From contig NZ_JAJLQX010000017.1 in NCBI RefSeq assembly GCF_021295095.1, positions 1 through 64,000 of the forward strand: a stretch of DNA of 64,000 bases, read 5' to 3'. Source of the stretch: Phocaeicola oris. GTDB lineage: Bacteria > Bacteroidota > Bacteroidia > Bacteroidales > Bacteroidaceae. Shown here piece by piece: positions 10,959-57,222 of this stretch. Every line of letters begins with the position of its first letter. Positions within the stretch are counted from its first letter, which is position 1. A program made the position numbers and the translations under genes. The notes under the pieces were generated by a model that saw only the letters and a list, made by a program, of their open reading frames with translations, was not told the DNA's origin and searched no databases.

Positions 10959-11059
10959 CGATACGTATGAGTCCACCGACTCATACGTATCACTTTATAA
11001 AAACTTCTGATGAATTCTTTCATTCATCCGCGTCTCTTTTCGCTTTCATCCGCGTCGGA
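10959..11059. repeat. 22-bp repeat family, locus 1 (4 units, contains a 14-bp perfect hairpin)
   Basis: Units start at 10959, 10981, 11024 and 11046. The first two are an inverted pair: arms 10960-10973 and 10978-10991 are perfectly complementary (GATACGTATGAGTC / GACTCATACGTATC) around a 4-base loop. The last two share TCATCCGCGTC. The block fills the whole gap between the convergent genes ugd and gdhA, so the hairpin could act as a bidirectional terminator, though no long T-run follows. Confidence 0.8.
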
Positions 11060-11062
11060 ATA

Positions 11063-12397
11063 TCAGATGATGCCCTGTGCCATCATAGCTTTGGCAACCT
11101 TCATAAATCCGGCAATGTTAGCGCCTTTCACATAGTTAACATAACCGTCGGGCTCTGTGCCGTATTTTACACAAGCCTCGTGAATGCTCTTCATAATGCT
11201 GTGCAGACGGTTGTCCACCTCCCCGGCAGTCCAGCTGAGATGCTCGGCATTCTGAGTCATTTCCAAGCCGGATACAGACACGCCACCTGCATTGGATGCT
11301 TTACCCGGACTGTATAGAATCTTCGCGTCCTGAAAGACTTTGATAGCTTGTGGAGTACATGGCATGTTAGCGCCCTCGCTGACAGCAATGGCACCATTGG
11401 CGACAATGGCCTTGGCTGCTTCTTCATTGATTTCGTTTTGAGTAGCCGATGGTAAAATAATATCGGCCTTTTCGCTCCAAGGTTTGGCTCCTGCAACGTA
11501 TTTAACTCCGTATTTCTCGGCATACTCGCTGATACGTCCTCGATAAAGATTCTTCAGTTCCATGATGTAATCCAACTTCTCACGGTCAATGCCGTCAGGG
11601 TCGTAGATGTAACCGTCAGAATCGCTCATGGTGAGCACCTTACCTCCCAACTGAATAACTTTCTCGACCGTGTACTGAGCTACGTTTCCGGCACCGGATA
11701 CCAAACAAGTTTTGCCGTTCAGGTCGAGCCCTTTTGTCTTCAGCATCTCTGTCAGGAAATAGATGTTTCCATATCCGGTTGCTTCGGGACGGACAAGCGA
11801 GCCTCCGAATTCACGGCCTTTTCCGGTGAATGTTCCGGAAAACTGGTGGGAGAGCTTTTTATACATGCCGAACATGTAACCCACTTCACGACCACCCACA
11901 CCGATGTCACCGGCAGGAACATCCTCATCCGGACCCACATGATTCCAAAGCTCTGTCATAAATGCCTGACAGAACCGCATAATCTCGTTGTTCGACTTGC
12001 CTCTCGGAGAGAAATCGGAACCGCCCTTAGCGCCTCCCATAGGGAGTGTTGTCAACGAATTCTTGAATGTTTGCTCGAAAGCGAGGAATTTCAAGATACT
12101 CAGATTGACCGAGGCGTGAAAACGGACACCGCCTTTGTACGGACCGATGGCGTTATTATGCTGAACACGGTAACCCATATTGGTTTGAACATTTCCTTTA
12201 TCGTCGACCCATGTCACACGGAATGTGTAAATTCGGTCGGGGATACAGAGCCGTTCCACTAAGTTCGATTTATCAAATTCAGGATGTTTGTTATACTCCT
12301 CTTCAATACTGTTCAAAACAACAGAAACAGCCTGAATGTATTCAGGCTCGTTAGGGAATCTTCTATTCAGATCTTCCAATACTTTTGTTGCGTTCAT
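11063..12397 (-). CDS. gdhA: glutamate dehydrogenase, hexameric (probably NADP-dependent)
   Basis: Assimilates ammonium by reductive amination of 2-oxoglutarate. The 444-residue length and N-terminus match the hexameric bacterial GDH type. Substrate-binding Lys88 is in GPYKGGVRFH, the catalytic Lys124 in LPMGGAKGGSDF, and the dinucleotide fold motif GAGNVAQ is near residue 240. GdhA is a major ammonia-assimilating enzyme in Bacteroidales. A good Shine-Dalgarno (AAAGGAG) lies 9 bases before the ATG, and a consensus -7 box is upstream. Confidence 0.95.
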   Translation of the reverse strand: MNATKVLEDLNRRFPNEPEYIQAVSVVLNSIEEEYNKHPEFDKSNLVERLCIPDRIYTFRVTWVDDKGNVQTNMGYRVQHNNAIGPYKGGVRFHASVNLSILKFLAFEQTFKNSLTTLPMGGAKGGSDFSPRGKSNNEIMRFCQAFMTELWNHVGPDEDVPAGDIGVGGREVGYMFGMYKKLSHQFSGTFTGKGREFGGSLVRPEATGYGNIYFLTEMLKTKGLDLNGKTCLVSGAGNVAQYTVEKVIQLGGKVLTMSDSDGYIYDPDGIDREKLDYIMELKNLYRGRISEYAEKYGVKYVAGAKPWSEKADIILPSATQNEINEEAAKAIVANGAIAVSEGANMPCTPQAIKVFQDAKILYSPGKASNAGGVSVSGLEMTQNAEHLSWTAGEVDNRLHSIMKSIHEACVKYGTEPDGYVNYVKGANIAGFMKVAKAMMAQGII

Positions 12398-12445
12398 AAT
12401 TTAATCTCCTTTGTTATTGATATGTATTTTGTTTTTATCGACGGA

Positions 12446-12453
12446 CAAAAGTA
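12446..12453 (-). promoter_or_regulatory. -7 box for gdhA
   Basis: Minus strand reads TACTTTTG, an exact TAnnTTTG match, 48 bases before the gdhA start codon. No clear TTTG -33 element is visible. Confidence 0.55.
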
Positions 12454-12551
12454 TAGTATTTTTTGAATATACGAAACAAAAAGATAAGAAATTTAGAATA
12501 AAAGTATAAAAAAGACGTTTAAAGGTATATAGTTTAAAAATTATGTTAGTT

Positions 12552-12734
12552 TTATTCGTTTTTATTTTTGAAGTATTGGTAGAGCGGAACAAAAACCATG
12601 GCTCCGGATAAAAGAATGGTCACGATAAGCGGTCCGTCAATCTTGGGAGTTGAGGTAAGGACTATAAAACAGAAAGCAATCCAGACTAAGGCAATCAGGA
12701 CTATCTGTGTAAGAGACAACTTTCTTCGCATCAT
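12552..12734 (-). CDS. small two-helix membrane protein, unknown function
   Basis: A 60-residue protein that starts MMRRKLSLTQ and has two hydrophobic segments: about 9-27 (IVLIALVWIAFCFIVL) and about 34-52 (PLIVTILLSGAMVFVPLYQYF), with a Lys/Asn-rich tail (FKNKNE). The positive residues at the N-terminus and tail suit a small inner-membrane hairpin. I do not recognise a family. It lies between maeB and gdhA on the same strand; the next 100 bases toward gdhA hold only the gdhA promoter. Coding status is supported by length and composition only. Confidence 0.5.
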   Translation of the reverse strand: MMRRKLSLTQIVLIALVWIAFCFIVLTSTPKIDGPLIVTILLSGAMVFVPLYQYFKNKNE

Positions 12735-12793
12735 AAGCTGTGTACTATATAATAAATAATGAATAATAAAAATGGATGAGCAGTTAACAGATA

Positions 12794-12854
12794 GCTCCCC
12801 CCCTCCGTTTTTCGCGACAGGAGGGGAGCCGGAAACGGGAGTAAACGCCCCGTT
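12794..12854 (-). terminator. pair of GC-rich hairpins downstream of the malic enzyme gene
   Basis: Two adjacent inverted repeats: GCTCCCC-CCC-TCC (12794-12806) with GGAGGGGAGC (12820-12829), and AACGGG (12834-12839) with CCCGTT (12849-12854). They lie 22-80 bases after the maeB stop, and their GC content contrasts with the surrounding A/T-rich DNA. No long U-run follows on the minus strand, so they may be a terminator or an mRNA 3'-end stabiliser. Confidence 0.45.
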
Positions 12855-12875
12855 GCCTATATCTACGGTTAAAAG

Positions 12876-15173
12876 TTATAATTTATTAATCTGTTTCTTT
12901 TTCTTGTCTACATAAGCGTCAATGACAGCAACGGCCGTGATATTGACGATGTCTCGAACCGACGCTTCATGATCGGTGAAGTGGATAGGTTTGTTCAATC
13001 CCATTTGGATGGGACCGATAATCTCCATATCGTTATTCATGCCCTGCATGAGTTGATACGCGGCATTAGCGGAACTCAGGTTGGGGAATACAAGCGTGTT
13101 CACTTTCTTTCCTTTTAATCGGGTGAACGGATAAAGCTCATCGCGTAATTTCCGGTTGAGCGCGAATTTCATTTGCATCTCACCGTCGATATCCAAATGG
13201 GGATACTCTTTCTGCATGTACGTTACTGCTTCGTGCACTTTCTCCGGACTGCCTTTCTCGTCGGAGCCGAAGTTGGAGTAAGAGAGCATGGCCATTACCG
13301 GTTTATGATTGAAGAACTCCACCGACTTAGCTGTCAGGCGGGCTACATCAATAAGTGTGTCGGGGTCGGGATGGCGGTTAATCAGCGTATCGGCAATGAA
13401 ATACGTTCCTTTATTGGAGTTGAGTATATGCATGGTGCCGAAGTGATTATATCCCGGTTGGATGCCAATGACTTCTTTGGCCACTTTAATGGTATTGGAG
13501 TACTTGGTGTATAAACCGGTAATGAACGCGTCGGCGTCGCCTGTTTCCACCATCATCATTCCGAAGTAATTCCGCTCGAACATCTTATCGTTTGCTTCTT
13601 GGAAGTTGGCTCCTTGGCGGGCTCGTTTATCGGCGAGGATGTGAGCGTAACGAACACGTCGGGCTTCTTCGTTGGGATGCCGTAAATTGATAATCTCAAT
13701 ACCATCGAGACTTAAATCCAACTGCTTTGCCATTTTACGGATGGCTTCATCATTGCCCAATAGAACAGGCTGACAGATGCCTTCTTCCTTGGCAAGGACA
13801 GCTGCTTTCAGCATAGAAGGATGAATGGCCTCGGCGAATACCACACGTTGCGGGTGACGTCGAGCCGTGTCGTACAGTTGGCGTGTCAGTTTGCTTTCCT
13901 GCCCCATCAGTTGACGAAGATGTACTTCATAGCCTTCCCAGTCGGTAATCTGTTTACGAGCCACTCCCGAGCTCATGGCAGCCTTAGCTACGGCCATGCT
14001 CACGTGGGTAATCAGTCGCGGATCAACAGGTTTCGGAATGAAATAATCCGGTCCGAAAGTGAAGTTATCGACGTGGTATGTTTCGTTTACAACTTCGGGA
14101 ACAGGTTGTTTGGCCAAGTCAGCGATGGCATGGACGGCAGCTAATTTCATTTCTTCATTGATAGCTTTTGCACGTGTGTCGAGCGCTCCACGGAAGATGT
14201 ACGGAAACCCGATGACATTATTTATTTGATTCGGGTAATCGGAACGTCCGGTGGAGATGAGTACGTCCGGACGCGAGGCCTTAGCTTCCTCGTACGAGAT
14301 TTCAGGGGTAGGATTGGCTAACGCAAACACTATGGGGTTCTCGGCCATGCTGCGTACCATATCCTGAGTGAGCACGTTCCCTTTCGATAGTCCTAAGAAT
14401 ACATCGGCGCCCTTGATGGCTTCTTCAAGGGTATGTACATCCCGACGTTCGGTCGCGAACATTTGTTTGTTCGGAGTCAGATTGGGAAGATCGGAAGTGA
14501 TGACGCCTTTACTGTCGAGCATGAGGATATTTTCCTTTCGGGCGCCTAAGGCAACGTATAGCTTGGTGCACGAGGTTGCGGAAGCGCCTGCGCCATTCAC
14601 AACGATACGTACATCTTCAATCTTCTTTCCCGCTACTTCCAAGGCATTCAACAGTCCGGCAGCCGATATAATGGCTGTTCCATGTTGGTCGTCGTGCATG
14701 ACGGGAATATCGAGTTCGGCTTTCAACCGGTCTTCTATCTCAAAACATTCGGGAGCCTTGATGTCTTCTAAATTGATGCCTCCGAAGGTAGGAGCAATGG
14801 CTTTTACCGCCTCGATGAATTTATCGGGGTCTTTCTCGTCAATCTCGATATCAAAAACATCAATGCCGGCGTAAATCTTGAACAGTAAGGCTTTTCCTTC
14901 CATCACCGGTTTTCCGCTCATGGCGCCTATGTTGCCTAATCCTAAAACGGCAGTTCCGTTTGAGATGACAGCTACCAAGTTTCCCTTATCGGTATAGTCG
15001 TACACGGTTTCGGGATTCTTTTGAATCTCCAGACATGGCTCCGCTACTTCCGGAGAGTATGCAAGTGATAAGTCGGCCTGTGTATTATAGGGTTTGGTTG
15101 GAACGATTTCTATTTTTCCGGGTCTGCCCTCGGAGTGATAGCGGAGGGCAGCTTCTTTTGTTATCTTTACCAT
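12876..15173 (-). CDS. maeB: NADP-dependent malic enzyme with phosphotransacetylase-like domain
   Basis: Oxidative decarboxylation of malate to pyruvate with NADP reduction. The 765-residue MaeB form has the malic N-domain (about 1-160, with DIEIDEKDPDKFIEAV and MHDDQHGTA), the NAD-binding domain (about 165-400, VVNGAGASATSC) and a C-terminal phosphotransacetylase-like domain from about 430 (RRHPQRVVFAEA) to the end. In MaeB proteins this last domain is regulatory, binding acetyl-CoA, rather than catalytic. Monocistronic by position, with a consensus -7 box upstream and paired hairpins downstream. Confidence 0.93.
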   Translation of the reverse strand: MVKITKEAALRYHSEGRPGKIEIVPTKPYNTQADLSLAYSPEVAEPCLEIQKNPETVYDYTDKGNLVAVISNGTAVLGLGNIGAMSGKPVMEGKALLFKIYAGIDVFDIEIDEKDPDKFIEAVKAIAPTFGGINLEDIKAPECFEIEDRLKAELDIPVMHDDQHGTAIISAAGLLNALEVAGKKIEDVRIVVNGAGASATSCTKLYVALGARKENILMLDSKGVITSDLPNLTPNKQMFATERRDVHTLEEAIKGADVFLGLSKGNVLTQDMVRSMAENPIVFALANPTPEISYEEAKASRPDVLISTGRSDYPNQINNVIGFPYIFRGALDTRAKAINEEMKLAAVHAIADLAKQPVPEVVNETYHVDNFTFGPDYFIPKPVDPRLITHVSMAVAKAAMSSGVARKQITDWEGYEVHLRQLMGQESKLTRQLYDTARRHPQRVVFAEAIHPSMLKAAVLAKEEGICQPVLLGNDEAIRKMAKQLDLSLDGIEIINLRHPNEEARRVRYAHILADKRARQGANFQEANDKMFERNYFGMMMVETGDADAFITGLYTKYSNTIKVAKEVIGIQPGYNHFGTMHILNSNKGTYFIADTLINRHPDPDTLIDVARLTAKSVEFFNHKPVMAMLSYSNFGSDEKGSPEKVHEAVTYMQKEYPHLDIDGEMQMKFALNRKLRDELYPFTRLKGKKVNTLVFPNLSSANAAYQLMQGMNNDMEIIGPIQMGLNKPIHFTDHEASVRDIVNITAVAVIDAYVDKKKKQINKL

Positions 15174-15202
15174 AATTCAGTTGTTATGTATTATTTAATT
15201 TA

Positions 15203-15210
15203 CAAAATTA
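15203..15210 (-). promoter_or_regulatory. -7 box for maeB
   Basis: Minus strand reads TAATTTTG, an exact TAnnTTTG match, 29 bases before the maeB ATG. Confidence 0.55.
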
Positions 15211-15280
15211 CGATATAAAATTGATATAAGAACAGAATAGAGAGTAAATTAAATGAAATAATACATACTATGGGGGTAAA

Positions 15281-15390
15281 TCATACGTATAATTTGTTCA
15301 ACTCATGCGTATGAACCGTTCAACTCATACGTATAATTTGTTCAACTCATACGTATGAATCGTTCAACTCATGCGTATCACTTTGCTTGT
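15281..15390. repeat. 22-bp repeat family, locus 2 (5 tandem units)
   Basis: Units start at 15281, 15303, 15325, 15347 and 15369, exactly 22 bp apart. Each begins TCAT(A/G)CGTAT and most end GTTCAAC; the last ends in the ATCACTTT seen at the edge of other loci. It lies in the divergent maeB / RND-operon interval, about 150 bp before the RND promoter. Apart from this array and the two promoters I see nothing else in 15174-15622. Confidence 0.9.
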
Positions 15391-15538
15391 TCGTATATAT
15401 CGGATTAGTAGCCGGTTATGATAGGTTTACCCGAGAGTAGTAGCCGGGATTCGAGAGATAAAATTAACTACATTTGACCTGATTTGTTATTATTAGTTAA
15501 ACAATTGGTCGATTGAATATAGGTAATGGAAAAATATC

Positions 15539-15546
15539 TACTTTTG
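15539..15546 (+). promoter_or_regulatory. -7 box for the RND efflux operon
   Basis: TACTTTTG, an exact TAnnTTTG match, 76 bases before the adaptor ATG; ATTG is present at about the -33 distance. The product of the operon's own tetR gene might bind near here; no clear palindromic operator is visible overlapping the box. Confidence 0.5.
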
Positions 15547-15622
15547 CAACGAAAACCGAGAAAGTTTAAAAAGTTTTCATTATGATAAAAATGGATTATA
15601 AATCTAAAACAATAAATTAGGT

Positions 15623-16807
15623 ATGAAAGTTTTAAATTATCGTTTTGCGCTATTAGCCGGTGCTATTGTAGCATTAAGCAGTTGCGGTGGAAACAGTGGA
15701 ATGAAGTTGGGAGACGATGAGTTTGCTACCATGACGGTATCGAGTACGGCAAGTGAACAAACTACATCTTATCCGGCAACCATTAAAGGAAAGCAGGATA
15801 TTGAAGTTCGTCCGCAGGTTTCAGGTAACATTGTAAAACTGTACGTAGATGAAGGCGCTACAGTGCGTAAGGGGCAGGCATTGTTCGGAATAGACCCGAC
15901 ACAGTATGCCGCGGCTGTCCATCAGGCAAAAGCCGCCGTAGAGATGGCCAAGTCGGGTTTGAACACGGCTACGCTTACGGAGCAGCAGAAAAGAACATTG
16001 CACGACAAGCATATTATCAGTGATTATGAGTACACAGCGGCTGTTAACCAGTTGGAGTCGGCAAAGGCTCAGTTGGCACAGGCAGAGGCTTCCTATACGG
16101 CAGCCGCTCAGAATTTGGGATTCTGTACCGTAACCAGTCCGTCGAACGGAGTGGTTGGAACATTCCCTTATCGTGTAGGCGCATTGGTGGGGCCGTCTAT
16201 CGCTTATCCTTTGACTACGGTCAGTGAGATTGGTGATATGTACGTTTATTTTTCCATGACAGAGAAAGAATTGCTGAAGATGACGAAGCAGGGTACATCA
16301 TTGAAAGAGGAACTTGCCAAGTTGCCCGAAGTTGAGTTGCGGCTTATTGATGGTACGCTGTATGACGAGAAAGGAAAGATTGACGCGGTGAGTGGTGTCA
16401 TTGACCAGAATACAGGTTCGGTTAGTATGCGAGCTGTCTTTCCTAACAGTAAAAATGTGCTCCGCAGCGGTGGCACAGGTAATGTTGTTTTCCCTTATAA
16501 AATGGATGGCGTGATGATTATTCCCCAGAGCGCCACTCAGGAAATTCAGGATTTGAAGTTTGTTTGGGTGGTAGGCAACGATAACAAAGTAGTCAGCACT
16601 CAGGTTACTGTTTCTCCTTTGGATGATGGTCAGAACTATATTGTTACCGATGGTTTGAAAGATGGTGACAAGATTGTGATTGAAGGCGTTCAGCTGTTGT
16701 CTAACGGACAAGAAATCAAGCCTATTACAAAGGAACAGGCAAGGGCTAAATATGAACAGCATTTGAAAGATCAGAGTGAGGGAAATATTCAAACAGCGTT
16801 TAAATAA
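15623..16807 (+). CDS. RND efflux periplasmic adaptor (AcrA-like lipoprotein)
   Basis: Links the inner-membrane RND pump to the outer-membrane factor. The 394-residue protein has a lipoprotein signal with lipobox LSSC (acylated Cys21). It then has the biotinyl-lipoyl-like half motifs (YPATIKGKQDIEVRPQVSGNIVKLYVDEGATVRKGQALFGID, split by the hairpin), a helical hairpin (about 90-150, AKAAVEMAKSGLN and QLESAKAQLAQAEASY), and beta-barrel and membrane-proximal domains. First gene of a five-gene operon (adaptor, pump, channel, LpxA-like, TetR). Confidence 0.93.
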   Translation: MKVLNYRFALLAGAIVALSSCGGNSGMKLGDDEFATMTVSSTASEQTTSYPATIKGKQDIEVRPQVSGNIVKLYVDEGATVRKGQALFGIDPTQYAAAVHQAKAAVEMAKSGLNTATLTEQQKRTLHDKHIISDYEYTAAVNQLESAKAQLAQAEASYTAAAQNLGFCTVTSPSNGVVGTFPYRVGALVGPSIAYPLTTVSEIGDMYVYFSMTEKELLKMTKQGTSLKEELAKLPEVELRLIDGTLYDEKGKIDAVSGVIDQNTGSVSMRAVFPNSKNVLRSGGTGNVVFPYKMDGVMIIPQSATQEIQDLKFVWVVGNDNKVVSTQVTVSPLDDGQNYIVTDGLKDGDKIVIEGVQLLSNGQEIKPITKEQARAKYEQHLKDQSEGNIQTAFK

Positions 16808-16849
16808 TCTGTCCCGCGTTAAATATCGTACCATTTAAGTTAGAATAGA

Positions 16850-20065: not shown

Positions 20066-20069
20066 TAGA

Positions 20070-21455: not shown

Positions 21456-21468
21456 AAAATATAGTATC

Positions 21469-22242: not shown

Positions 22243-22243
22243 T

Positions 22244-22909: not shown

Positions 22910-22931
22910 TTAATCAGAACTTTTATTAGAC

Positions 22932-23019
22932 TGACGCGCATGAGTTGTCCAACTCATACGCGTCAGTTCACTAACTCATCCGCATGAGTTGAGCAATTCA
23001 TACGTATCACTTTTTAAAG
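22932..23019. repeat. 22-bp repeat family, locus 3 (4 tandem units, 17-bp inverted pair)
   Basis: Units start at 22932, 22954, 22976 and 22998. The first two are inverted: 22931-22947 pairs with 22950-22966 with a single mismatch in 17 bp (CTGACGCGCATGAGTTG / CAACTCATACGCGTCAG). The last unit ends in ATCACTTTTT. The block begins 22 bases after the tetR stop and could form the 3' hairpin of the efflux operon transcript. Confidence 0.88.
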
Positions 23020-23486: not shown

Positions 23487-23490
23487 AAAA

Positions 23491-23529: not shown

Positions 23530-23547
23530 GTGATTGTGGTTTAAGCG

Positions 23548-24963: not shown

Positions 24964-24984
24964 CTTTATAAAATTTGCTTTATG

Positions 24985-31190: not shown

Positions 31191-31312
31191 TCATCCGCAT
31201 GAGTGGGTAAAGTGATGCGTATGAGTTGACTGATTCATGCGTATGAGTAGGCAAAATGATACGTATGACTTTGACCGATGACGCGTATGACTTTGGGAAT
31301 TCATGCTCATGC
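31191..31312. repeat. 22-bp repeat family, locus 4 (6 tandem units)
   Basis: Units start at 31191, 31213, 31235, 31257, 31279 and 31301 in exact 22-bp register. Cores include TCATCCGCATGA, TGATGCGTATGA, TCATGCGTATGA and TGACGCGTATGA. The array fills the space between gph and the esterase, both on the minus strand. The last unit contains the gph stop codon, and the first may include the alternative esterase start at 31194. Confidence 0.88.
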
Positions 31313-43722: not shown

Positions 43723-43818
43723 TTTATACGGCACACAAGATCTGTATTCTCTTTCGTCGGTACATTAAGTTGCAGTGATAATGTCAATTTCATATCTCAT
43801 CAAGAGCATTAGGAAAAG

Positions 43819-43928
43819 TGATGCGCATGAGTTGACCGATTCATCCGCATGAGTTGTACGATTCATCCTCATGAGTTGATCGATTCATGCGTATGAGTTG
43901 TACGTTTGATACGTATCACTTTTCGCGT
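43819..43928. repeat. 22-bp repeat family, locus 5 (5 tandem units)
   Basis: Units start at 43819, 43841, 43863, 43885 and 43907 in exact register. Cores read TGATGCGCATGA, TCATCCGCATGA, TCATCCTCATGA, TCATGCGTATGA and TGATACGTATCA, each followed by GTTG in all but the last. The array ends in ATCACTTTTC. It lies between the convergent ATP-grasp and alpha-galactosidase genes; 43723-43818 holds nothing recognisable. Confidence 0.92.
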
Positions 43929-43986
43929 TTATAGGCATCGGAATAATAACAGAAATGTTTTTTCCTTCAAAGTCGGTATAAAAGAA

Positions 43987-44018: not shown

Positions 44019-44037
44019 ATTGTTATTTCTTAAAATA

Positions 44038-46233: not shown

Positions 46234-46295
46234 AGCATTACTTTTGTAAATGAATAAAATGGTTACTTCTGTTTAGAGCTAATATATACTCCGGA

Positions 46296-46303
46296 CAAAA
46301 GTA
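46296..46303 (-). promoter_or_regulatory. -7 box for alpha-galactosidase
   Basis: Minus strand reads TACTTTTG (exact TAnnTTTG), 63 bases before ATG 46233 and 20 bases past the end of the upstream permease gene, so the enzyme gene can be expressed independently of the export operon. Confidence 0.55.
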
Positions 46304-46322
46304 ATCATTTTTTTTGATAAAT

Positions 46323-48710: not shown

Positions 48711-48797
48711 GATTAAATATTTTTTGTTTGAGGATTAAAAGTTTAGTTCGTTATAGAGGAAAGGTAAACTTTTCCACCTATATTCGTTGCTAAACTA

Positions 48798-49475
48798 TTA
48801 AAGCCCTTCTGTTGTTGAGACAATCTGGCCATCGAACAAATTGATAATACGTCCGGCAAAGCCTGCGTCATGCTGACTATGAGTAACCATGACGATGGTG
48901 GTACCTTCTTTATTTAATTCTGTCAGAAGTTCCATTACTTCTTGTCCATTCTTTGAGTCCAGATTACCGGTAGGCTCATCGGCAAGAATCAATTTCGGAT
49001 TAATTATTACGGCACGTGCGATGGCAACTCTTTGTTGCTGACCTCCCGACAACTGTTGTGGATAATGTTTTGCCCGATGACTGATATTCATTCGCTTAAG
49101 GATTTCAGTCACACGTTTCTTTCTTTCATTGGCGGGAATGCCTAAGTATGTCAACGGTAATTCCACATTCTCGAAAACATTCAATTCGTCAATCAGATTA
49201 AAACTTTGGAACACGAATCCGATATTTCCTTTACGGACTTTGGTGCGATCTTTTTCTTTCAGGTGACCGACTTCTTCCTGATTCAAATAATAATTACCCG
49301 AAGTTGGGTTGTCAAGCAGTCCCATAATATTCAGTAAGGTTGACTTACCGCAGCCCGAAGGTCCCATGATAGCGACAAATTCTTTATCGGCAACTTCCAA
49401 ATTTACATTATTCAACGCAATGGTCTCAACTTCTGTTGTAACGAATTTCTTAGTTAAATTTTCAATCTTAATCAT
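48798..49475 (-). CDS. ABC transporter ATP-binding protein (MacB/LolD type)
   Basis: A 225-residue ATPase that powers the neighbouring FtsX-type permeases. Walker A is GPSGCGKST (38-46), Q-loop [12 protein letters not shown], signature [14 protein letters not shown], Walker [13 protein letters not shown] and switch MVTHSQHDA. The FQSFNL and EPTGNLD wording is typical of the LolD/MacB/FtsE group. It is the only ATPase for three permeases in this operon. Confidence 0.95.
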
Positions 49476-49519
49476 GTCTTTATTCTTTTAAAATTATTAA
49501 TTATCTATTATTTATTTTA

Positions 49520-51886
49520 TTATTCTGTCTTTATACTGTCAATTGGATTTTCTTTGGTTGCTTTATTACTGATAATGTAAACAGATGTCAATGATACGAC
49601 TGTTACAAAAGCAATAGCAACCAGTGGTATCCACCACGGACAATCGTATCTTTCCACCGGAATTAAGTCGTTCAGTTTCTTTATTCCACCCCACATCAAT
49701 GGAAGAGCAATGATTAGGCTGAAGAATAATGAACGAAGTGTGAATTTCATCAAGCTGAACAGTTCTATTCTATTTGTTGAACCAAACACTTTCCGAATAG
49801 CCATATCTCTTCTGCGCTGTGTGATAAAATAGATACTCATGGCTGTCAATCCTAACAAGGAAATAACTAATGCGGCAAAGGTGAAGATTCCAATGGTCTT
49901 ACTTAGTTGAGACACCGGCTCGTATTGTTGTTTTACCATATCACTATACCATCTGGAAGAGAAAGGTATTCCATTGGCTAAACCGGAATATATGGAATCA
50001 ATCTGTTCTTTGTAATTTTTGAAATCTCCGTTATGTACTTGTACACATACGCCTCCGGGATGTTTAATACTGTCATTCGGAATAATATTCATTAGAATAT
50101 AATCAGAACCGGGATTTAATACCGACCGTATTTTTATATCGTTTATTATTCCTGCAATGATATATTTATCGTTATAATCGGTGGTAATATAATCGGTATA
50201 TCCTAACTCGTTAGCGGTTTTTATGGCGTTTTCGCTAAAGAACCAATTATGTTTGTCCGGTTGTAACTTTCGGTCTTCTATAATATGAATGTCAAACATC
50301 TTAATAAAGGCGGAATCGACATTTATTTGTTCAAAGCTCATTGATTTGTTCGGACCTCCTTTTGCGTTCTTTATATTCTGTGTATTGTTACGTCCGCCTT
50401 CAATCAGAAGTTCATCGGAAAAAGAAATGTTATTTACGAATGGTAATTTTTGCAGTTCACTTCTGAATGTGTGATAGTCTTTACTATTGAGTACCGGATC
50501 TAACGTAAGTATATTTTCATAGCTATATCCAAGTGGCAGGTGCAATAAGAAGTAAAACATGGAAGCCATAAATAAAGCACATGTCAACAGAGCGATGGTT
50601 AATCCGTTCTGAAAGATACTAAGCAGACGTAGATAGATAGCTTTCGTTTTACGGCGGAATGTTCCTTTTACTATATCCATTGGGTGATAGTTTGATAAAA
50701 TGGTAGCAGGGAAAAATCCGGATACAAACGCTAATAAAGCTATAGTAGAAACATATATTAGTAAGGTTATCGCATTCAGGTCACCTGTAATATCTATCTT
50801 GGTCCGGAAGAGATCTATGGCGAAAGGCTCTGCTGCTTTGGCCAACAGGAATCCTAATAGAAAAGCAATGAAAGTCAGCAACAGAGATTCTTCAATCATC
50901 CGCCAGAAGATATCTTTTTTATTTGAGCCTAACAAACGTCGGGTTGCCATTTCTTTGGCACGATAGCTTGTTTGAACAATACTCATGCAGATATAGTTGA
51001 ATACTGCCATTAACAAGATAATGATGCCTACTATTATATATATGATTACTTGCGTAAAATCGTACTGATTCAGTCCATTGAAGTCTTTAATCTCTGAGAA
51101 ATAAAAGTCTTTCATCGGAATAAACTGCACATCATTGACAGCCTCTTGAGAGTATATCCAGAAGATGGTTTTGAGATAATTTTTCACTTCTTCTTTTTTC
51201 CGATTGAAATCCACTCCCTTGGGTGTCTTTATGAAAAGTTCGGCGCCGGCCGCGTTATTCATCATTTCCGCTTTTTCCGAAGAGCTCCAGTTTACATATT
51301 CCATTATCTCGAAAGGGAATATGGCTTCTGTTTCATCCGGGAAGATAGAATTGTCAATGTTTTCTGCAATACCGCTTACCACATAATTGGTACTTTGGGA
51401 ATCATGCGTAAATAGGAATGTTTTTCCTACCGCGTGTTCGGTACCAAACAACTTAATGGCTCCTTTACGTGTAAGCACAACATTGGTGGTTCCCTGAAGT
51501 ACATCTTCAGCTTTACCTTCGACTAACCGATAGCCAAAGAAAGAATAGAAGTTTTTACGTACAATCAGTGAGTTTAGTTCGTAATTCGTATCGCCTACTT
51601 TAGCTATCACCGTTTTGCCAGGACTGGTTACGCACCAGTCTTCAATTTCGGGATAACGACTTTGCAATTTATCGCCCAAATTATAATGAGCTCCAACAAA
51701 ATATTCATTAGCAAACAAGCTGATGTGGTCAGCGTCTTTTACTTCAGCGTCTACTCTGAGCTGTCGGGTTATCATATTCGCTATCAACAATACGAACATC
51801 AACGATATGCTTAAACCCAACACGTTGACAAAAGTGAATAATTTATTGTGATTAAGGAAATGGAAATATGTCTTTAATTTTTTCAT
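49520..51886 (-). CDS. MacB/FtsX-type ABC transporter permease (second of the operon)
   Basis: A 788-residue permease related to its two neighbours. N-terminal TM (FVNVLGLSISLMFVLLIANMI), periplasmic MacB_PCD domain, three central TM helices (IIYIIVGIIILLMAVFNYICM; LLTFIAFLLGFLLAK), a second periplasmic domain and three C-terminal TMs. The FtsX motif is MAIRKVFGSTNRIELF. It starts 14 bases after the preceding permease and ends 44 bases before the ATPase gene. Confidence 0.88.
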   Translation of the reverse strand: MKKLKTYFHFLNHNKLFTFVNVLGLSISLMFVLLIANMITRQLRVDAEVKDADHISLFANEYFVGAHYNLGDKLQSRYPEIEDWCVTSPGKTVIAKVGDTNYELNSLIVRKNFYSFFGYRLVEGKAEDVLQGTTNVVLTRKGAIKLFGTEHAVGKTFLFTHDSQSTNYVVSGIAENIDNSIFPDETEAIFPFEIMEYVNWSSSEKAEMMNNAAGAELFIKTPKGVDFNRKKEEVKNYLKTIFWIYSQEAVNDVQFIPMKDFYFSEIKDFNGLNQYDFTQVIIYIIVGIIILLMAVFNYICMSIVQTSYRAKEMATRRLLGSNKKDIFWRMIEESLLLTFIAFLLGFLLAKAAEPFAIDLFRTKIDITGDLNAITLLIYVSTIALLAFVSGFFPATILSNYHPMDIVKGTFRRKTKAIYLRLLSIFQNGLTIALLTCALFMASMFYFLLHLPLGYSYENILTLDPVLNSKDYHTFRSELQKLPFVNNISFSDELLIEGGRNNTQNIKNAKGGPNKSMSFEQINVDSAFIKMFDIHIIEDRKLQPDKHNWFFSENAIKTANELGYTDYITTDYNDKYIIAGIINDIKIRSVLNPGSDYILMNIIPNDSIKHPGGVCVQVHNGDFKNYKEQIDSIYSGLANGIPFSSRWYSDMVKQQYEPVSQLSKTIGIFTFAALVISLLGLTAMSIYFITQRRRDMAIRKVFGSTNRIELFSLMKFTLRSLFFSLIIALPLMWGGIKKLNDLIPVERYDCPWWIPLVAIAFVTVVSLTSVYIISNKATKENPIDSIKTE

Positions 51887-51900
51887 AAATGATTATTTTT

Positions 51901-54261
51901 TTATTCCGTCTTTATACTGTTTATTGGATTCTCGTTCGCGTTCTTCCAGCTCTGGAATGTGACGGTCAACATGGTGAAAAAGGTAACCAAGAGGAAAGCG
52001 ACAAGGAAAACAAGGAGCGATATATTTGTTTGCTGCGCGAATCCTTCTAACCAGTGGTGTCCGAACAAATATCCGACAGGAGCGGCAAAGACAAAACATC
52101 CTATCAACATATATATGTACCGTTTGTTGAACATGTAAAGGATTTCTTTAGTCGAACTACCCATAATCTTTCGGATTCCTATTTCTTTTCTTCGGTATTC
52201 GCTTTCGAACATCGTCAGTCCGAATACGCCAATGATGCTAATCAGGATGGCAAGTAAAGAGAACAGGACAATCTGTTTCGTATATAAGAATTCATGTTGA
52301 TAATTATTCTCAATGACCTGATCCATGCTGCGGACATTGAAATCGTTATGCGGAGTGAATTCCTCTAAGGCTTTCTGTATCTCTTTTCGTGCGGCAACCT
52401 TGTCTACATTCTTTCCTACACGAATGTTTAATACGTTTCGCCAGTTACCCCAATCTTTATATTTGCCGGTAGGAGAAGAAATGAATAAACCTAATGGCAG
52501 ATCATCTTTTATTTGTCTGAACGAAGCGTACTGTAAGTCATCGAAAAAACCGACTACGAGGAAATCGTTTGCATTGAGTTTCTCATCAACCTTGACAAAA
52601 GGATACTTCTTTTTCATCGACTCCGAAAACATATAAACGTCTCCGTCGCCTTCTTTAAACCCTCTGCCTTCCACAATTTTCAATCCTAACGTGTTTGGAA
52701 AATGTGAGTCGACAAAGAAGACGGCAAATCCCACCTGATCGTTTTCATTTGTTCCGCGTCCCCAAGTCATGTATCCGTTTGAAGAACTCATGATGAACTG
52801 AGAGAAGCTGGCATCTTCCACGCCACTGATGTTTTTCATTCGATTGATGACTGCTTCGGGCTGGCTGCGCGTTTCCCGTGTGGTGGAGGCCACCATTACC
52901 ATGTCTTTGTCGTATCCGTAATCGGACGTGAAAATATAATGACTCTGCAGATACATAATACCTACGGCAATAATCAGTATGAACGAGATAATGAACTGTA
53001 TGCTTATCAATATAGCGCGGAGGATTCTGCCTTTTGGAGAAAGCCCGAACGAACCTTTCAGTACTAAAGCCGGAGGAAAGGATGTGACATAATAGGACGG
53101 GTAAGCACCGGCTAACAATCCCACAGTAACGCTTATCAGAAAAGTAAGGAGAAGCAAAGTTTTCTGGTCGTCTAACCGGATGGAGGCATCGACCAGATGC
53201 TGTAATCCCATGTCGTTGGCAATGACTACCCATATAAGCGACAGAGCGTATGCTATCAAACTTATGAATACAGCTTCCGCTAATAAACTCCCTTTCAGTT
53301 TCGCTGCTGTCGCGCCTAATATCTTCTGTGTATTGATACTGCGAATCCGCATAGGAGTTTCTGCTAACGTGAAGTTCATGAAGTTGACACCGGCAATGAG
53401 AATAATCAGGATAGAGAAGCAGAACAGCAGATAGACAGATGATTTGGAACTGGTTCCTCCCTTGCTGAAATGTGTATCGGCGATGGGCATGAAGTTGATT
53501 TTGAGTCCTTCCAAATCTTTATCTGTGGTACCTTTTTCTTTAAAGAATTGTATAAATTTCTTTTCGAACAAATCGTTCACTTCCTTTACGTTCTTCGCGT
53601 CATCTAACCGGACGTAGAAATAATAGTTCCAATTGTTTCCGTTTCCTTCGTTTTCATTGCTTCCGATGAAACAACAGTCGTAGAAGAATGTATTATCCGG
53701 ATAGTCTTTGACAATGGCACAGATGGTGATTTCTGTATCCGGATTTTCTTCTGTCAAAGCCGGAAGGGTGATGGTTTTGTTAACGACGTCTATCGAACCG
53801 AACATGCGCTTGGCTGCTGATTCCGTGACAACGATTTGTCGTTCTTCTTTCATTCGGTCAAGATTTCCTGAAATGATTTCCGGTTCAAATATTTTCGGAA
53901 AGTCATTGATTCCAAGCATCACTTGCAGGTTGTATTCTTTCTCGTTGATCCTGAATTTTCGATTAAATACTTGACTGATTAATCCATAGCTTTTTACATG
54001 TGGAGAGGATTGTGATAAGGCTTCTGCTATAGGACGTGAAAAGTGGGTGGTATAATCACCCATACTTCTCTCCAAATTCATGCTTATCTGATACAGGTTT
54101 CGATAATCTTTGATAGATTTATTGTATCCGTTGTCGTAGCTGACTTGTGTCATGATAACGAAGAACGCGGCAAAAGCCAGACTTAACCCTAAAATGTTTA
54201 ATAGGTTGGCCATTACGAAACGGCGGAATATAGAAGTAAAATTTCGGATAATTGTTTTCAT
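51901..54261 (-). CDS. MacB/FtsX-type ABC transporter permease (first of the operon)
   Basis: A 786-residue permease with N-terminal TM (ANLLNILGLSLAFAAFFVIMT), periplasmic domain, central TM helices (VYLLFCFSILIILIAGVNFMN), a second periplasmic domain and C-terminal TMs with EIGIRKIMGSSTKEIL. It begins 7 bases after the adaptor gene. The three permeases share architecture and C-terminal ending ENPI(D/N)SIKTE-like (this and the second) and therefore arose by duplication. Confidence 0.88.
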   Translation of the reverse strand: MKTIIRNFTSIFRRFVMANLLNILGLSLAFAAFFVIMTQVSYDNGYNKSIKDYRNLYQISMNLERSMGDYTTHFSRPIAEALSQSSPHVKSYGLISQVFNRKFRINEKEYNLQVMLGINDFPKIFEPEIISGNLDRMKEERQIVVTESAAKRMFGSIDVVNKTITLPALTEENPDTEITICAIVKDYPDNTFFYDCCFIGSNENEGNGNNWNYYFYVRLDDAKNVKEVNDLFEKKFIQFFKEKGTTDKDLEGLKINFMPIADTHFSKGGTSSKSSVYLLFCFSILIILIAGVNFMNFTLAETPMRIRSINTQKILGATAAKLKGSLLAEAVFISLIAYALSLIWVVIANDMGLQHLVDASIRLDDQKTLLLLTFLISVTVGLLAGAYPSYYVTSFPPALVLKGSFGLSPKGRILRAILISIQFIISFILIIAVGIMYLQSHYIFTSDYGYDKDMVMVASTTRETRSQPEAVINRMKNISGVEDASFSQFIMSSSNGYMTWGRGTNENDQVGFAVFFVDSHFPNTLGLKIVEGRGFKEGDGDVYMFSESMKKKYPFVKVDEKLNANDFLVVGFFDDLQYASFRQIKDDLPLGLFISSPTGKYKDWGNWRNVLNIRVGKNVDKVAARKEIQKALEEFTPHNDFNVRSMDQVIENNYQHEFLYTKQIVLFSLLAILISIIGVFGLTMFESEYRRKEIGIRKIMGSSTKEILYMFNKRYIYMLIGCFVFAAPVGYLFGHHWLEGFAQQTNISLLVFLVAFLLVTFFTMLTVTFQSWKNANENPINSIKTE

Positions 54262-54268
54262 TGTAACA

Positions 54269-55519
54269 CTAATTAAGTATCAACACTTCATTGTCTTTAA
54301 AGCTTTCATAACCGGAGATGATAACCCGTTCGCCTTTCTCTAAGCCCTCCATCACCTCATAGTATTGTGGATTTTGACGACCGATACGAATCTTTCTTCT
54401 ATATGCTTTATGACCGTCTTTGTCGACTACGAAAATCCAGTTTCCTCCGGTAACTTGGAAGAATGTTCCTTTTGGAATGAGCACGCTTTGAGATGATTCT
54501 CCTAATTGCAAATCGATGTAATAAGTCTGTCCGGTACGGATATTTTCCGGACGAGCGCCTTCGAATATAAAGTCGGTGCGGAAGCGGCCTTCTCTGACTT
54601 CGGGATAAACTTTTCTTACTTTCAGTTTAAACTTTTTGTCTTGACGCTCAAAGGTGGCAGGTAATCCGTTGGTCACCCTGTCGATATAATGTTCGTCAAC
54701 TTGGGCTTCTATTTTATAATCGGAAAGGTCGTTTATCTGTCCTACCATTTGACCGGCGGATATGTTCTGCCCTAACTCAACATCCAGTAAGCCGAGTTCG
54801 CCGGATATGGTAGCGCGGACTTCTAATTTCTCTTTACGTTCCCGTATCAAGGCTACGTTCTGTCGCATATTCTGTAAGTTATCTTCCATCTGGTCCATTT
54901 GGATATATCGATAAATGGAATCTTGTTTCAATCGTTCATTAATCAAGTTATGCTTCTTTTGTGAAAGCTGCCAGTCTTCTTGAGCCTTTAGAAACTCTTC
55001 TTTGCTTATTAATTTCTCTTTATAAAGACGAGAATACTGTTGGAATGTGCGTTCTTTTTGCTTTGTATCAATATCGAGCGTCGCTTTCTCTGTTTCATTA
55101 TTCAGTTTGTCTTGTTGCATGGTAACTTGTGTGTTACGAAGCATATTCTGTTTTTCGGCAACTTCCGACTCGGCATTCAGTATTTGTAAGTCTAAGTCGG
55201 AGTTACTGAGACGGATAATGACATCACCTTGATTGATGTGCGCGCCTTCTTCAACTATTTTTTCGCGTACAATTCCGCCTTCTTCCGGACTGATTTGGAC
55301 AATTTGAATAGGTTGAACTTTTCCGTTAACACGAATATAGTCATTGAACTCGCCATAAGTGACATCGGCAATATTGATAGATTTCGCTTCTATACGCATG
55401 GTTGAAGCGTGGTTTCCGAAGAGAACCCATAACAGCAAAAGAAGAATTGCACCCCCACCGATGATGTATGGGATATGTTTCTTTTGAATTCCTTTTTTCT
55501 TTTCTAATTGTATATCCAT
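54269..55519 (-). CDS. HlyD/MacA-type periplasmic adaptor
   Basis: A 416-residue adaptor joining the MacB-like permeases to TolC. An N-terminal TM anchor (IPYIIGGGAILLLLLWVLFG, about 16-35) replaces a lipobox. A lipoyl half motif (VQISPEEGGIVREKIVEEGAHINQ, split) comes next, followed by a long coiled-coil hairpin (about 115-215, VAEKQNMLRNTQVTMQQDK and later LQNMRQNVALIRERKEKL), then beta-barrel domains and a membrane-proximal domain (VMEGLEKGERVIISGYE). It starts 11 bases after tolC. Confidence 0.92.
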   Translation of the reverse strand: MDIQLEKKKGIQKKHIPYIIGGGAILLLLLWVLFGNHASTMRIEAKSINIADVTYGEFNDYIRVNGKVQPIQIVQISPEEGGIVREKIVEEGAHINQGDVIIRLSNSDLDLQILNAESEVAEKQNMLRNTQVTMQQDKLNNETEKATLDIDTKQKERTFQQYSRLYKEKLISKEEFLKAQEDWQLSQKKHNLINERLKQDSIYRYIQMDQMEDNLQNMRQNVALIRERKEKLEVRATISGELGLLDVELGQNISAGQMVGQINDLSDYKIEAQVDEHYIDRVTNGLPATFERQDKKFKLKVRKVYPEVREGRFRTDFIFEGARPENIRTGQTYYIDLQLGESSQSVLIPKGTFFQVTGGNWIFVVDKDGHKAYRRKIRIGRQNPQYYEVMEGLEKGERVIISGYESFKDNEVLILN

Positions 55520-55530
55520 AGTGTGTTTTT

Positions 55531-56883
55531 TTATTTTCGTTTAATAATGTCTTCTCCTTTATAATAGTCAACCAAGCGACATTTTAAGAAGTATGTCAAC
55601 TTGCTTTGTAAAAGATTTGCCTGACTTTCTAACCATGTCGCGGCATTATTCTGAACATCGAGGGAAGTCATGAGTCCTTCCTCATATTTCCGTTTGGTTA
55701 CCTGATAGGCGATAGCGTCTGACTCTTCTTTCTTTTCCATCCGGATACTTTCCTTTAGGTATCCCTCACGGTCGAGTACAGCTTGTTCTACCAGCTTGCG
55801 GAGTTCCAGTTTCTGTTCTTCGTATTGCTCTTTTGCAATGAGGTAATTATTTCGGGCTTTCTTCACATTACCGTAGCTTTTGAAATGGTTTAAAATAGGA
55901 ATACTCAATGTGAATCCGAAATAATATCCATAATTATTATTAAACTGCTCATGGAAACTTGGATAATTTGAACTGTGCAATTCCTTAAAATATGAAGTAG
56001 AAAGACCGGAGAACATATATACGGAAGGGAGTGCCTCGCCATAAGCAATGTAGCGACCTATTTTAGTGGACTTGGCATTCATTTCCGACTTGCGGAGTGT
56101 GGGATTATTCTGCATTGCCAACCTTACAACTTCTTCTTTATCGGCTGTTTGAAGTTCTATATGATTAAATACAGATGAATCGAGCAGGGTAGAGTCAAGG
56201 AGGAGTGGCTCATCGGTTGGATAATTCATTTTCTGGCGGAGGTTGAGCAATGCCGTGGCCAACAGGTTTTGTTGTTTAGTCAGGTTATATGCGTCTGTTG
56301 CCTGCTGAGCTTCCATTTGGGCAACATCAGCCTGACCTTTCAGGCCGACTTGCTCCTGGACTTGTGTTTTATATAATATGGAGTCGCTCTCGGAAAGTTT
56401 CTTTTTTGCCATACGAACTGTACCTTGGCAATAGAGTGCCTGAATATATGCTTGGAATGTTTCAAGAGCTACATTATCGCGTTCTTCCTGAAGCGCAGCT
56501 TTGCCTCTCAGTACGTTTACACGGGCTTGTCTGACTTGATTAACCAGACTACCGCCATAAAATATGGGAAGCGTGCTTTGCAGCGAGTAATAGTTATTGA
56601 ATGTTTTTACGTTTTTATACGTATTGGTTTCAGGGTCAATGTTACGACCATAGTTGTATTGAGCTTGAATGCCTCCTTGCAGACCGGGAAGAAAATTTCC
56701 GATAGCTTGCAATTTATCAAGTTTGTTGTTTTTCACTTCAAACGCTCGTTGACGAACTGTGTGATTGTTCTTCACAGCGTAATCCATGCAGCGGTCAACA
56801 TCCCACACATCTTGAGCATGGAGACTGACCGTCGCGGCCAACATGAGGAGGAATAATCCTTTTTCTATCTTTTTTCTTTTCAT
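55531..56883 (-). CDS. TolC-family outer-membrane channel
   Basis: A 450-residue outer-membrane efflux protein with signal peptide (KGLFLLMLAATVSLHAQ), two OEP domains of long helices (VWDVDRCMDYAVKNNHTVRQ; later VEQAVLDREGYLKESIRM) and a NPTLRKSEMNAKSTK repeat start. I use ATG 56883 (MKRKKIEKG). A longer reading to 57072 would add 63 residues, overlapping a sigma-54 promoter and upstream activator sites and lacking any TolC character. First gene of the export operon. Confidence 0.92.
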   Translation of the reverse strand: MKRKKIEKGLFLLMLAATVSLHAQDVWDVDRCMDYAVKNNHTVRQRAFEVKNNKLDKLQAIGNFLPGLQGGIQAQYNYGRNIDPETNTYKNVKTFNNYYSLQSTLPIFYGGSLVNQVRQARVNVLRGKAALQEERDNVALETFQAYIQALYCQGTVRMAKKKLSESDSILYKTQVQEQVGLKGQADVAQMEAQQATDAYNLTKQQNLLATALLNLRQKMNYPTDEPLLLDSTLLDSSVFNHIELQTADKEEVVRLAMQNNPTLRKSEMNAKSTKIGRYIAYGEALPSVYMFSGLSTSYFKELHSSNYPSFHEQFNNNYGYYFGFTLSIPILNHFKSYGNVKKARNNYLIAKEQYEEQKLELRKLVEQAVLDREGYLKESIRMEKKEESDAIAYQVTKRKYEEGLMTSLDVQNNAATWLESQANLLQSKLTYFLKCRLVDYYKGEDIIKRK

Positions 56884-56913
56884 AATCGGATATTGAATTT
56901 CTATGGAATATAA

Positions 56914-56929
56914 AGCAACTACCGTGCCA
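56914..56929 (-). promoter_or_regulatory. sigma-54 promoter of the TolC/MacB-like export operon
   Basis: Minus strand reads TGGCACGGTAGTTGCT, matching the -24/-12 consensus TGGCACG-N4-TTGC(A/T) at every defined position. The -12 element ends 31 bases before the tolC ATG, leaving a leader of about 20 bases. The gene pair for an NtrC-type activator and kinase lies 3 kb away on the other side of the DUF5916 gene. Confidence 0.88.
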
Positions 56930-56981
56930 GAAGAGTTAGTTGTCTGATTATCAGAATAAAGAGACTTTTTGAATGATGCAT

Positions 56982-57022
56982 AGTGTCTAAAAAATAGACA
57001 CTTGGTGTATAAAGTTTGGACA
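56982..57022. promoter_or_regulatory. two upstream activator-like palindromes for the sigma-54 promoter
   Basis: Site 1 is a perfect dyad AGTGTCTA-AAAAA-TAGACACT (56982-57002). Site 2 (57006-57022) has the same TGT-N11-ACA frame, TGTATA-AAGTT-TGGACA, less symmetric. Their centres (56992 and 57014) are 22 bp apart, two helical turns, and lie roughly 65-90 bp upstream of the -24 element, the normal place for enhancer sites of NtrC-type activators. Confidence 0.65.
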
Positions 57023-57046
57023 GACTGTTTTGATTCCTTATTTAAG

Positions 57047-57222
57047 TCATACGTATCACTTGGTTGCTTCATGCGTATGACTTTGCCAACTCATGCGTAT
57101 GAGTTGAGTGATTCATGCGGATGAGTTGGACGATTCATGCGGATGAGTTGGACGATTCATGCGGATGAGTTAAGCGATTCATGCGGATCATTTGCGTGGT
57201 TTATATGGATGACCATGGTTGT
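57047..57222. repeat. 22-bp repeat family, locus 6 (7 units plus a degenerate eighth)
   Basis: Units start at 57047, 57069, 57091, 57113, 57135, 57157 and 57179, with a decayed unit at 57201. Units at 57113, 57135 and 57157 share TCATGCGGATGAGTT and the pair at 57113/57135 is identical over 22 bp, showing recent tandem duplication. This is the longest array and starts 25 bp beyond the sigma-54 activator sites, in the divergent tolC / DUF5916 interval. The remaining 57223-57338 contains only a weak promoter-like TACATTTA (57313-57320). Confidence 0.92.

Follow-up and report, generated by a model that had tools for sequence, protein, structure and literature searches.

Several described systems place dispersed palindromes across bacterial chromosomes. 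REP/BIME elements, with RAYT, IHF or gyrase, are scattered intergenic palindromes that recruit DNA-binding proteins, and in this they resemble the arrays studied here; to our knowledge, they have neither a strict 22-bp grid nor a paralog-specific core common with the leader of a nucleoid-protein gene. The matS/MatP, SlmA, Noc and parS/ParB systems are similar in that dispersed palindromes serve one DNA-binding protein in chromosome organisation. Their sites are mostly single, with one family per genome and other protein folds, whereas arrays of the class proposed below are tandem, with several private families per genome. HU is usually regarded as lacking sequence preference. The literature searched for HU-HIG proteins (Pfam PF18291), which have an HU domain, often together with a winged helix-turn-helix, did not yield any account of their target sites.

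The initial annotation had raised the possibility of an exact match to a named repeat. None was found, and the closest that we came upon is BrickBuilt of P. gingivalis, a minisatellite/MITE with a 23-nt unit and 19 dispersed, species-limited intergenic copies (PMC4596501, in the passages considered here). Both are short-period tandem repeats that are intergenic, dispersed and limited to a species, but BrickBuilt is described there with leader and tail segments, IS5-like terminal repeats and 1 to 22.8 units (PMC4596501), and its unit is 23 nt, not the 22 bp of our arrays. Its main text has no word beginning ‘palindrom’ and mentions dyad symmetry in section 8. In Table 1 one short element, BrickBuilt_14, has a membrane protein gene on one side and a gene for a PF00216 DNA-binding protein on the other, and the passages of PMC4596501 considered contain no pairing with HU. 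Our guess is that BrickBuilt may belong to the HU-HIG array class, to which we liken it by description, not by sequence.

The window, by which we mean the whole 64,000-nucleotide stretch of Phocaeicola oris DNA analysed, contains all six arrays that had been claimed, and no strand is assigned to any of them. Array 1 (10959-11059), where a UDP-glucose dehydrogenase-like gene (+) and gdhA (-) converge, has two good units (10959-10992) closed by ATCACTTT, with degenerate units and a slip beyond. Array 2 (15281-15384; five units in exact 22-bp phase, in a divergent gap) and array 3 (22932-23013; four units, in the convergent gap that separates a TetR-like gene from a histidine kinase-like one) both end in ATCACTTT. 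Array 4 (31191-31312) comprises six units, some degenerate, in a codirectional gap, and a TTG-start ORF call extends inside it. Array 5 (43797-43940), in a convergent gap, consists of five good units (43819-43918), with AAAGTGAT as opening and ATCACTTT as closing word, plus one degenerate unit per side, and array 6 (57047-57212) holds seven to eight units in a divergent gap. The total of about 31 units given initially compares with the 32 obtained by our chaining rule, degenerate units included, although only two belong to array 1. Allowing up to two mismatches, TCATRCGTATGA matched the window 57 times (both strands, palindromes double-counted), compared with 10.9 ± 3.9 matches in shuffled sequences (largest 23). 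A lag analysis that makes no use of the core identified five clusters at lag 22 in the window and none at any other lag from 12 to 40; a slightly lower lag threshold added one cluster at lag 29.

A genome scan, suggested as a way to see whether the family ends here, found further copies. Exact cores number 143 across the genome (84 and 59 by strand, perfect palindromes counted on both), the reversed-pattern control gave 0 + 0, and the window's main family comprises 38 arrays in 584 kb. Random density and spacing had also been considered, and both are beyond chance. Distances between strong cores, taken over 320 kb of this genome's contig C11, equal 22 bp in 107 cases, 44 bp in 82 and 66 bp in 57; 21 and 23 are absent, and 43, 65, 87 and 109 occur three to four times each. 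Unit-to-unit counts from the chaining rule are biased to 22 by construction and were excluded as spacing evidence. Fixed phase alone would be weak evidence, because tandem duplication preserves phase by default, but it carries weight in these arrays because indels are missing and substitutions are many, with 36% of positions different between adjacent spacers (97 pairs). The selection for spacing proposed by the initial annotation is thus supported, as the 22-bp spacing is kept while the spacers diverge.

The arrays are mostly intergenic: 28 of 31 have under 20% of their length within a crude ORF call, as do 3-6% of random 130-bp stretches. The loci were initially said always to lie between genes; arrays 4 and 6 of the window overlap ORF calls (57% and 16%, respectively), we think because the start calls are over-long. 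Twelve of the 31 occupy convergent gaps, where 7.4 would be expected by gap length (P = 0.008) and 7.7 by gap count (P = 0.026), and the arrays may have a role as terminators. Along C11, the evenness of their distribution is no different from random (CV 0.79, P = 0.18).

Comparison of sequences suggests that a protein of the HU-HIG family probably binds these arrays, as tandem sites set about two helical turns apart. In these proteins the HU domain spans about residues 1-124, followed in many long forms by the winged helix-turn-helix; the related model TIGR01201 (NCBIfam HU_rel) scores over its cut-off in L108, L109 and L111 and below it in L100, L110 and L112. An array at lag 21-23 is present within 600 bp upstream at 83 of 147 HU-HIG loci, a set not selected for arrays, and absent at the other 64. 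Leader arrays precede 66 of the 86 proteins of at least 185 aa and 17 of the 61 shorter ones, and 41/56 long and 14/44 short proteins when one random member was taken per 80% cluster. Applied to 621 other genes from stretches of congeners, this rule gives 24 with an array. These controls are genes of unrelated stretches because the other-ORF control of a wider locus set (19/167) was contaminated by shared divergent leaders. In that wider set, 87 of 158 loci have an array, but 12 loci were selected by the array pattern, 30 came from 11 genomes reached through such pattern loci (seven of these genomes included since an HU gene was seen beside an array) and about eight were fetched twice. Without the pattern-selected loci and those from genomes reached via them, 58 of 118 have an array within 300 bp upstream at z ≥ 6.5. 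Downstream of the genes, 4/108 loci of the wider set have one. Array-bearing genes were among the seeds of the HU search model; L115, L203 and L221 were dropped for want of an ORF, and 2 of 160 loci for want of a usable upstream stretch.

The typical leader array is located directly 3' of a -7-like box, TAnnTTTG, about 60 bp upstream of the start codon. The box accompanies 37 of 65 arrays; it falls in the stretch from array to ATG in 13 of 55 cases and farther upstream in 1 of 64. Leader arrays are palindromic (0.685 versus 0.538 in shuffled columns), and at 30 HU loci lag 22 was counted 21 times, lag 21 15 times, lag 14 nine times and any other lag at most five times, counts that reflect in part simple or coding repeats. 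The initial annotation had suggested an array-binding protein or a nucleoid role; HU-HIG leaders contain arrays built alike on different cores, which points the same way, as do matching arrays scattered through those same genomes.

The resemblance between two leader arrays grows with the identity of their HU-HIG proteins, from z 0.8 below 30% identity to 6.6 at 50-65%. For pairs below 80% identity the rank correlation is 0.42, compared with at most 0.14 in 500 permutations; two of the 83 leaders were too short and were omitted. Shared descent could account in part for like arrays in like proteins. Paralogs of one genome have mostly unlike cores, with z ≥ 6 in 9 of 94 pairs. In seven congeners, 19 of 38 scattered arrays resemble a leader of the same genome, compared with 5.3 expected from the leaders of other genomes, and among the clearer scattered arrays 15 of 21 do so (4.7 expected). 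Three congeners are weaker: G002 and G011 have 0 of 3 + 3 scattered arrays matched, and G043 has two of six. Arrays less than 1.2 kb from an HU gene (5/77) were excluded from this matching. In G060 both the leader and a scattered array have period 21. Agreement of period is in general partly built in, as matching uses the leader's period.

The genome studied here has leader arrays on four of its five strong HU-HIG genes. All four have at least one scattered partner in C11, and that of the period-23 leader also has period 23. Counting the leader in each case, the L112 core was found at 36 loci (90 matches, 0 in the control) and the L110 core at 14 loci (49 matches, 1 in the control). Considering C11 and the window together, 4 of 34 non-leader arrays match a resident leader, where 1.3 are expected. 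The window's main family has no good match among the four resident leaders (best z 2.7-6.2); it has the 22-bp grid and the TCA-N6-TGA outline of one predicted resident HU-HIG operator. None of the five HU-HIG genes in this assembly, which is 95% complete, has the window's core, TCATNCGNATGA, in its leader, and a search with the HU-HIG protein of RGIG7311, another MAG, returned just these five genes. The partner of the window core is missing, lost or unrecognised here. In RGIG7311, TCATGCGCATGA arrays with the same core as the window are scattered and also stand in an HU-HIG leader, and in the KKGINPQ clade a matching core precedes HU proteins with a Gly/Asp-rich tail and no winged helix. The window's family also joins units of the HU-HIG type in mixed arrays: in the two that we read (C11:234951 and L049), TCAT-N4-ATGA and TCAC-N4-GTGA units share one register.

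The two-unit pattern is present in only 1 of 60 congeners and was found again in other Bacteroidota. The HU-HIG family is present in 57 of the 60 genomes of the genus at E ≤ 1e-15. The closest congener found for the window is distant (gdhA 77% at best). Of 19 gdhA loci from congeners, 3 show a lag-22 cluster with no HU-HIG gene seen nearby. In the congeners G060 and G008, a printed block with one array differs in 2 of 176 columns, and the interval preset for the array, which extends beyond it on the right, is 93% identical compared with 84% and 90% for the flanks; the comparison is weak, as the two genomes are so similar (95-97% across long stretches). On viral contigs the pair pattern occurs in five stretches, and in L103 and L106 an HU-like gene adjoins the array. 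A phage origin was rejected, as an HU-HIG alignment search of viral sequences (22 pattern stretches) confirmed no relative.

The arrays could instead be MITE-like elements comparable to BrickBuilt, in which short inverted ends, AAAGTGAT...ATCACTTT, enclose an internal minisatellite. As non-autonomous transposons, they would have been dispersed by a transposase and would serve no binding function. The outward end word ATCACTTT is common to 23 of 62 array ends (CTTT makes up 20 of 258 inner half-words), chain size is fairly uniform (5-8 units in 29 of 31), and the family is amplified in one species of the genus, all of which, like the mostly intergenic placement, would suit such an element. However, only 4 of 31 arrays have the CTTT end on both sides, and the IS5-like terminal repeat GAGACCTTTGCA, at up to one mismatch, does not occur within 120 bp of any of the 31 arrays and matches the window twice, where 4.4 matches are expected by chance; these searches of array flanks and window lend no support to an IS5-type MITE. 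Nor would a transposon explain why, throughout Bacteroidota, HU-HIG leaders are associated with this grid under different cores. We consider this origin quite unlikely; HU-HIG binding would still allow the arrays to have spread through a copying process of some kind.

If the arrays acted in RNA, their transcripts would fold into long hairpins with a function in mRNA stability, termination or translation. Folding is indeed much stronger than chance on both strands of array 2 (z -3.5 and -5.2), the + strand of array 5 folds at z -8.1 versus -4.1 for the other, one strand of array 6 reaches -7.5 versus -1.8, and the leader arrays lie in probable 5' UTRs. Strand tests argue against a cis-acting RNA element, as the stable strand is the gene strand in just 6 of 14 codirectional gaps, the more stable strand of 83 HU-HIG leader arrays is sense in 35 and antisense in 45, and array orientation is unlinked to gene direction. 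A comparison of the window with Rfam at gathering score returned no known family, and we regard a role in RNA as very improbable. A different protein might also bind the arrays, with HU-HIG genes merely among its regular targets. The window core stands in no resident HU-HIG leader, and proteins of 157-164 aa that lack the winged helix also have leader arrays, both of which fit such a binder. It is nevertheless an unlikely one, given that array likeness follows HU-HIG protein likeness, that same-genome paralogs mostly differ and that a single genome has several families side by side, with four HU-HIG genes each having its own; with cores tracking the paralogs, a separate binder would need to have duplicated in step.

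Under the HU-HIG binding that we favour, dimers would bind each palindrome, aligned on one face of the DNA. Binding in the leader would repress the protein's own gene, and at the scattered sites it would chiefly shape or mark the chromosome and not switch single promoters, an architectural role suggested by the lack of strand preference relative to neighbour genes and the lean to convergent gaps. We are inclined, by a small margin, to a broader interpretation, in which the HU-HIG family has diversified into chromosome proteins that recognise specific sequences and form arrays, each paralog with a private palindromic address, giving several overlapping protein-marked site networks per chromosome. 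Each such address would be repeated with a 21-23 bp period in the leader of the paralog's gene and at anything from a dozen to hundreds of intergenic sites, and units could change from one address to another within an array.

Bacteroidota dominate the human gut. If HU-HIG proteins read private arrays, the cells of this phylum would hold several parallel chromosome-marking systems, whose sites could be read straight from sequence. The HU-HIG gene family would gain a testable role, and many intergenic repeats would be accounted for. The natural pairs of protein and site would also lend themselves to the study of how binding specificity evolves.

We confirmed all six of the 22-bp arrays proposed in the initial annotation, at positions 10959-11059, 15281-15390, 22932-23019, 31191-31312, 43819-43928 and 57047-57222, and counted 32 units under a chaining rule. 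As had been claimed, the core is near-palindromic: each unit consists of a 12-bp near-palindrome, TCAT-N-CG-N-ATGA, and a 10-bp spacer. The fixed phase despite sequence decay also held on C11, another contig of the same genome, where strong cores in 320 kb are separated by 22 bp (107 cases), 44 bp (82) or 66 bp (57) and never by 21 or 23 bp, although adjacent spacers differ at 36% of positions. Motif-free lag analysis of C11 revealed 29 clusters at lag 22 and at most two at every other lag from 12 to 40. Among half-words adjoining the core, GTTG is the commonest in array interiors, at 87 of 258, and ATCACTTT the commonest at array ends, at 23 of 62. As RNA, the plus strands of 43810-43928 and 57060-57195 each fold into a single long hairpin (z -8.1 and -7.5, respectively), the opposite strand folding less well; no association was found between the folding strand of arrays and gene direction.

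The scan of the whole genome suggested in the initial annotation identified further copies, with 84 + 59 exact-core matches (perfect palindromes being scored on both strands) and none for the reversed core pattern used as a control. A two-unit pattern gave 161 + 144 matches in this genome and a single match, in one species, in other members of the genus, and was absent from the remaining 59 of 61 genomes; across the family, 16 of 399 genomes were positive. Among the matches listed, MAGs of Bacteroidaceae/Prevotellaceae, Flavobacterium and Aequorivita also contain the pattern, with spacers that vary, and at 56 listed loci extra cores lie 22 bp (35), 44 bp (20) or 66 bp (5) from the retrieving pair. 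With 38 arrays in 584 kb, this main family is the largest seen in the window's genome. Two pairs of loci from different MAGs (L055 and L098, L063 and L074) share flanks and differ by one 22-bp unit, and arrays therefore appear to expand or contract by entire units. Four TCATRCGYATGA-like palindromes clustered in the actinobacterium Nocardia ninae (L084), not all in 22-bp phase, are probably unrelated.

At several loci retrieved by the two-unit pattern, the array adjoins a HU-like gene. Two IMG/VR viral contigs (L103 and L106) likewise carry a HU-like gene, of the KKGINPQ/KKGINPK type, with a similar 22-bp array directly upstream. In a sample of 30 loci encoding HU-HIG (PF18291) DNA-binding proteins, drawn from 11 genomes of which seven had been chosen for array adjacency, lag 22 was the commonest period of motif-free clusters with 21, followed by lag 21 with 15 and lag 14 with 9; no other lag had more than five, and many lag-22 clusters have different cores. 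The window's genome, whose HU-HIG genes were not selected by array adjacency, contains an array of about four units directly before four of its five strong HU-HIG genes, each with its own palindrome and one with period 23. The cleanest set comprises 147 HU-HIG loci of the genus picked by PF18291 score, irrespective of arrays. In 83 of them the 600 bp upstream of the gene contain an array of lag 21-23, including 66 of 86 encoding proteins of at least 185 aa vs 17 of 61 encoding shorter ones, whereas the same rule was positive for 24 of 621 non-HU-HIG genes in congener stretches. With one random protein per 80% cluster, arrays precede 41 of the 56 long proteins and 14 of the 44 short ones. The array ends a median of 58 bp before the ATG in the unselected part (quartiles 50 and 74) and 63 bp in the wider set (53 and 75). 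The box TAnnTTTG, the Bacteroidota -7 element, occurs at 37 of 65 arrays in the unselected part, vs 13 of 55 array-ATG intervals and 1 of 64 regions farther upstream in unselected leaders. Three HU-HIG proteins of 157-164 aa without a winged helix (L243, L258 and L277) form one clade with ACGTACGT-like leader cores; such cores are also scattered between genes in the congeners G055 and G019, with similar arrays in G011. G031, G033, G037 and G038 each hold several copies of a HU protein about 145-165 aa long; these copies mostly lack arrays and are possibly on mobile elements.

By eye, leader cores track the protein tree with exceptions, and TTACACGTNCGTGTAA, CCACACGNNCGTGTGG, TATCACTNNAGTGATA, GACTGTACAGTC and CTCCATAGCTTTTGGAG each mark one group. 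Across 81 leaders, mean array-match z rises with protein identity, from 0.8 below 30% to 2.7 (30-40%), 3.3 (40-50%), 6.6 (50-65%) and 8.1 (65-80%); for pairs below 80% identity the rank correlation is 0.42, against a maximum of 0.14 in 500 permutations. Nine of 94 paralog pairs within one genome reach z 6. This parallel supports a pairing of protein and core without proving it, because shared descent contributes.

Scattered arrays often resemble leaders of their own genome. In seven congeners, 19 of 38 match such a leader (4/5 in G055, 2/6 in G043, 3/5 in G060, 6/9 in G019, 4/7 in G025, and 0/3 in both G002 and G011), vs 5.3 expected from leaders of other genomes. The best match for the G011 arrays is the L277 leader, which belongs to a near-identical protein in G019. 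No lag-22 cluster was detected in 90 kb of G001, among the nearest relatives. One array is retained between G060 and G008, which is weakly consistent with the proposed role. The window and C11 together contain 34 non-leader arrays. Four of these match the leader of a resident HU-HIG gene, where 1.3 would be expected, and each of the four HU-HIG leaders has one such counterpart; most of the others belong to the main family. Genome-wide, leaders included, the palindrome of the L112 leader occurs at 36 loci (90 matches, control 0) and that of L110 at 14 (49 matches, control 1); 51 of 54 steps between L112-type units and all 28 between L110-type units measure 22 bp.

The main-family core itself was not found in a resident HU-HIG leader (assembly 95% complete, 50 contigs). 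Its outline is TCAY-N4-RTGA; two or more copies of TCAY-N4or5-RTGA occur in 13 of 83 leaders, including L112, and in no shuffles. Two fully read arrays, L049 and C11:234951, combine main-family and L112-type units in one 22-bp register, suggesting that single units of an array can change specificity, and in the MAG RGIG7311 the core TCATGCGCATGA occurs both in a HU-HIG leader and in scattered arrays. Given the outline, mixed arrays and RGIG7311 leader, membership of the window's family in the HU-HIG array class is well supported. Our literature search returned no published description of HU-HIG target arrays, and the term HU-HIG did not occur in the set of papers checked for it. The nearest named repeat found is BrickBuilt; Table 1 of PMC4596501 places the short 23-nt repeat element BrickBuilt_14 of P. 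gingivalis beside a PF00216 DNA-binding protein gene, and on that entry BrickBuilt may belong to the same class.

The long HU-HIG proteins examined comprise HU at about residues 1-124 followed by a region matching winged-helix families; HTH_IclR exceeds its cut-off in L108, the matches in L100, L109 and L110 stay below cut-off, and the L112 protein has no winged-helix match. The palindromic core would suit a HU-HIG dimer, and a period of 21-23 bp would set dimers along one face of the DNA. As leader arrays lie downstream of the promoter box, binding is predicted to block transcription. Scattered arrays show no strand preference relative to genes and are over-represented in convergent gaps (12 of 31 arrays; 7.4 expected by length, P 0.008; 7.7 by count, P 0.026), and we thus favor for them a putative structural role over promoter control.
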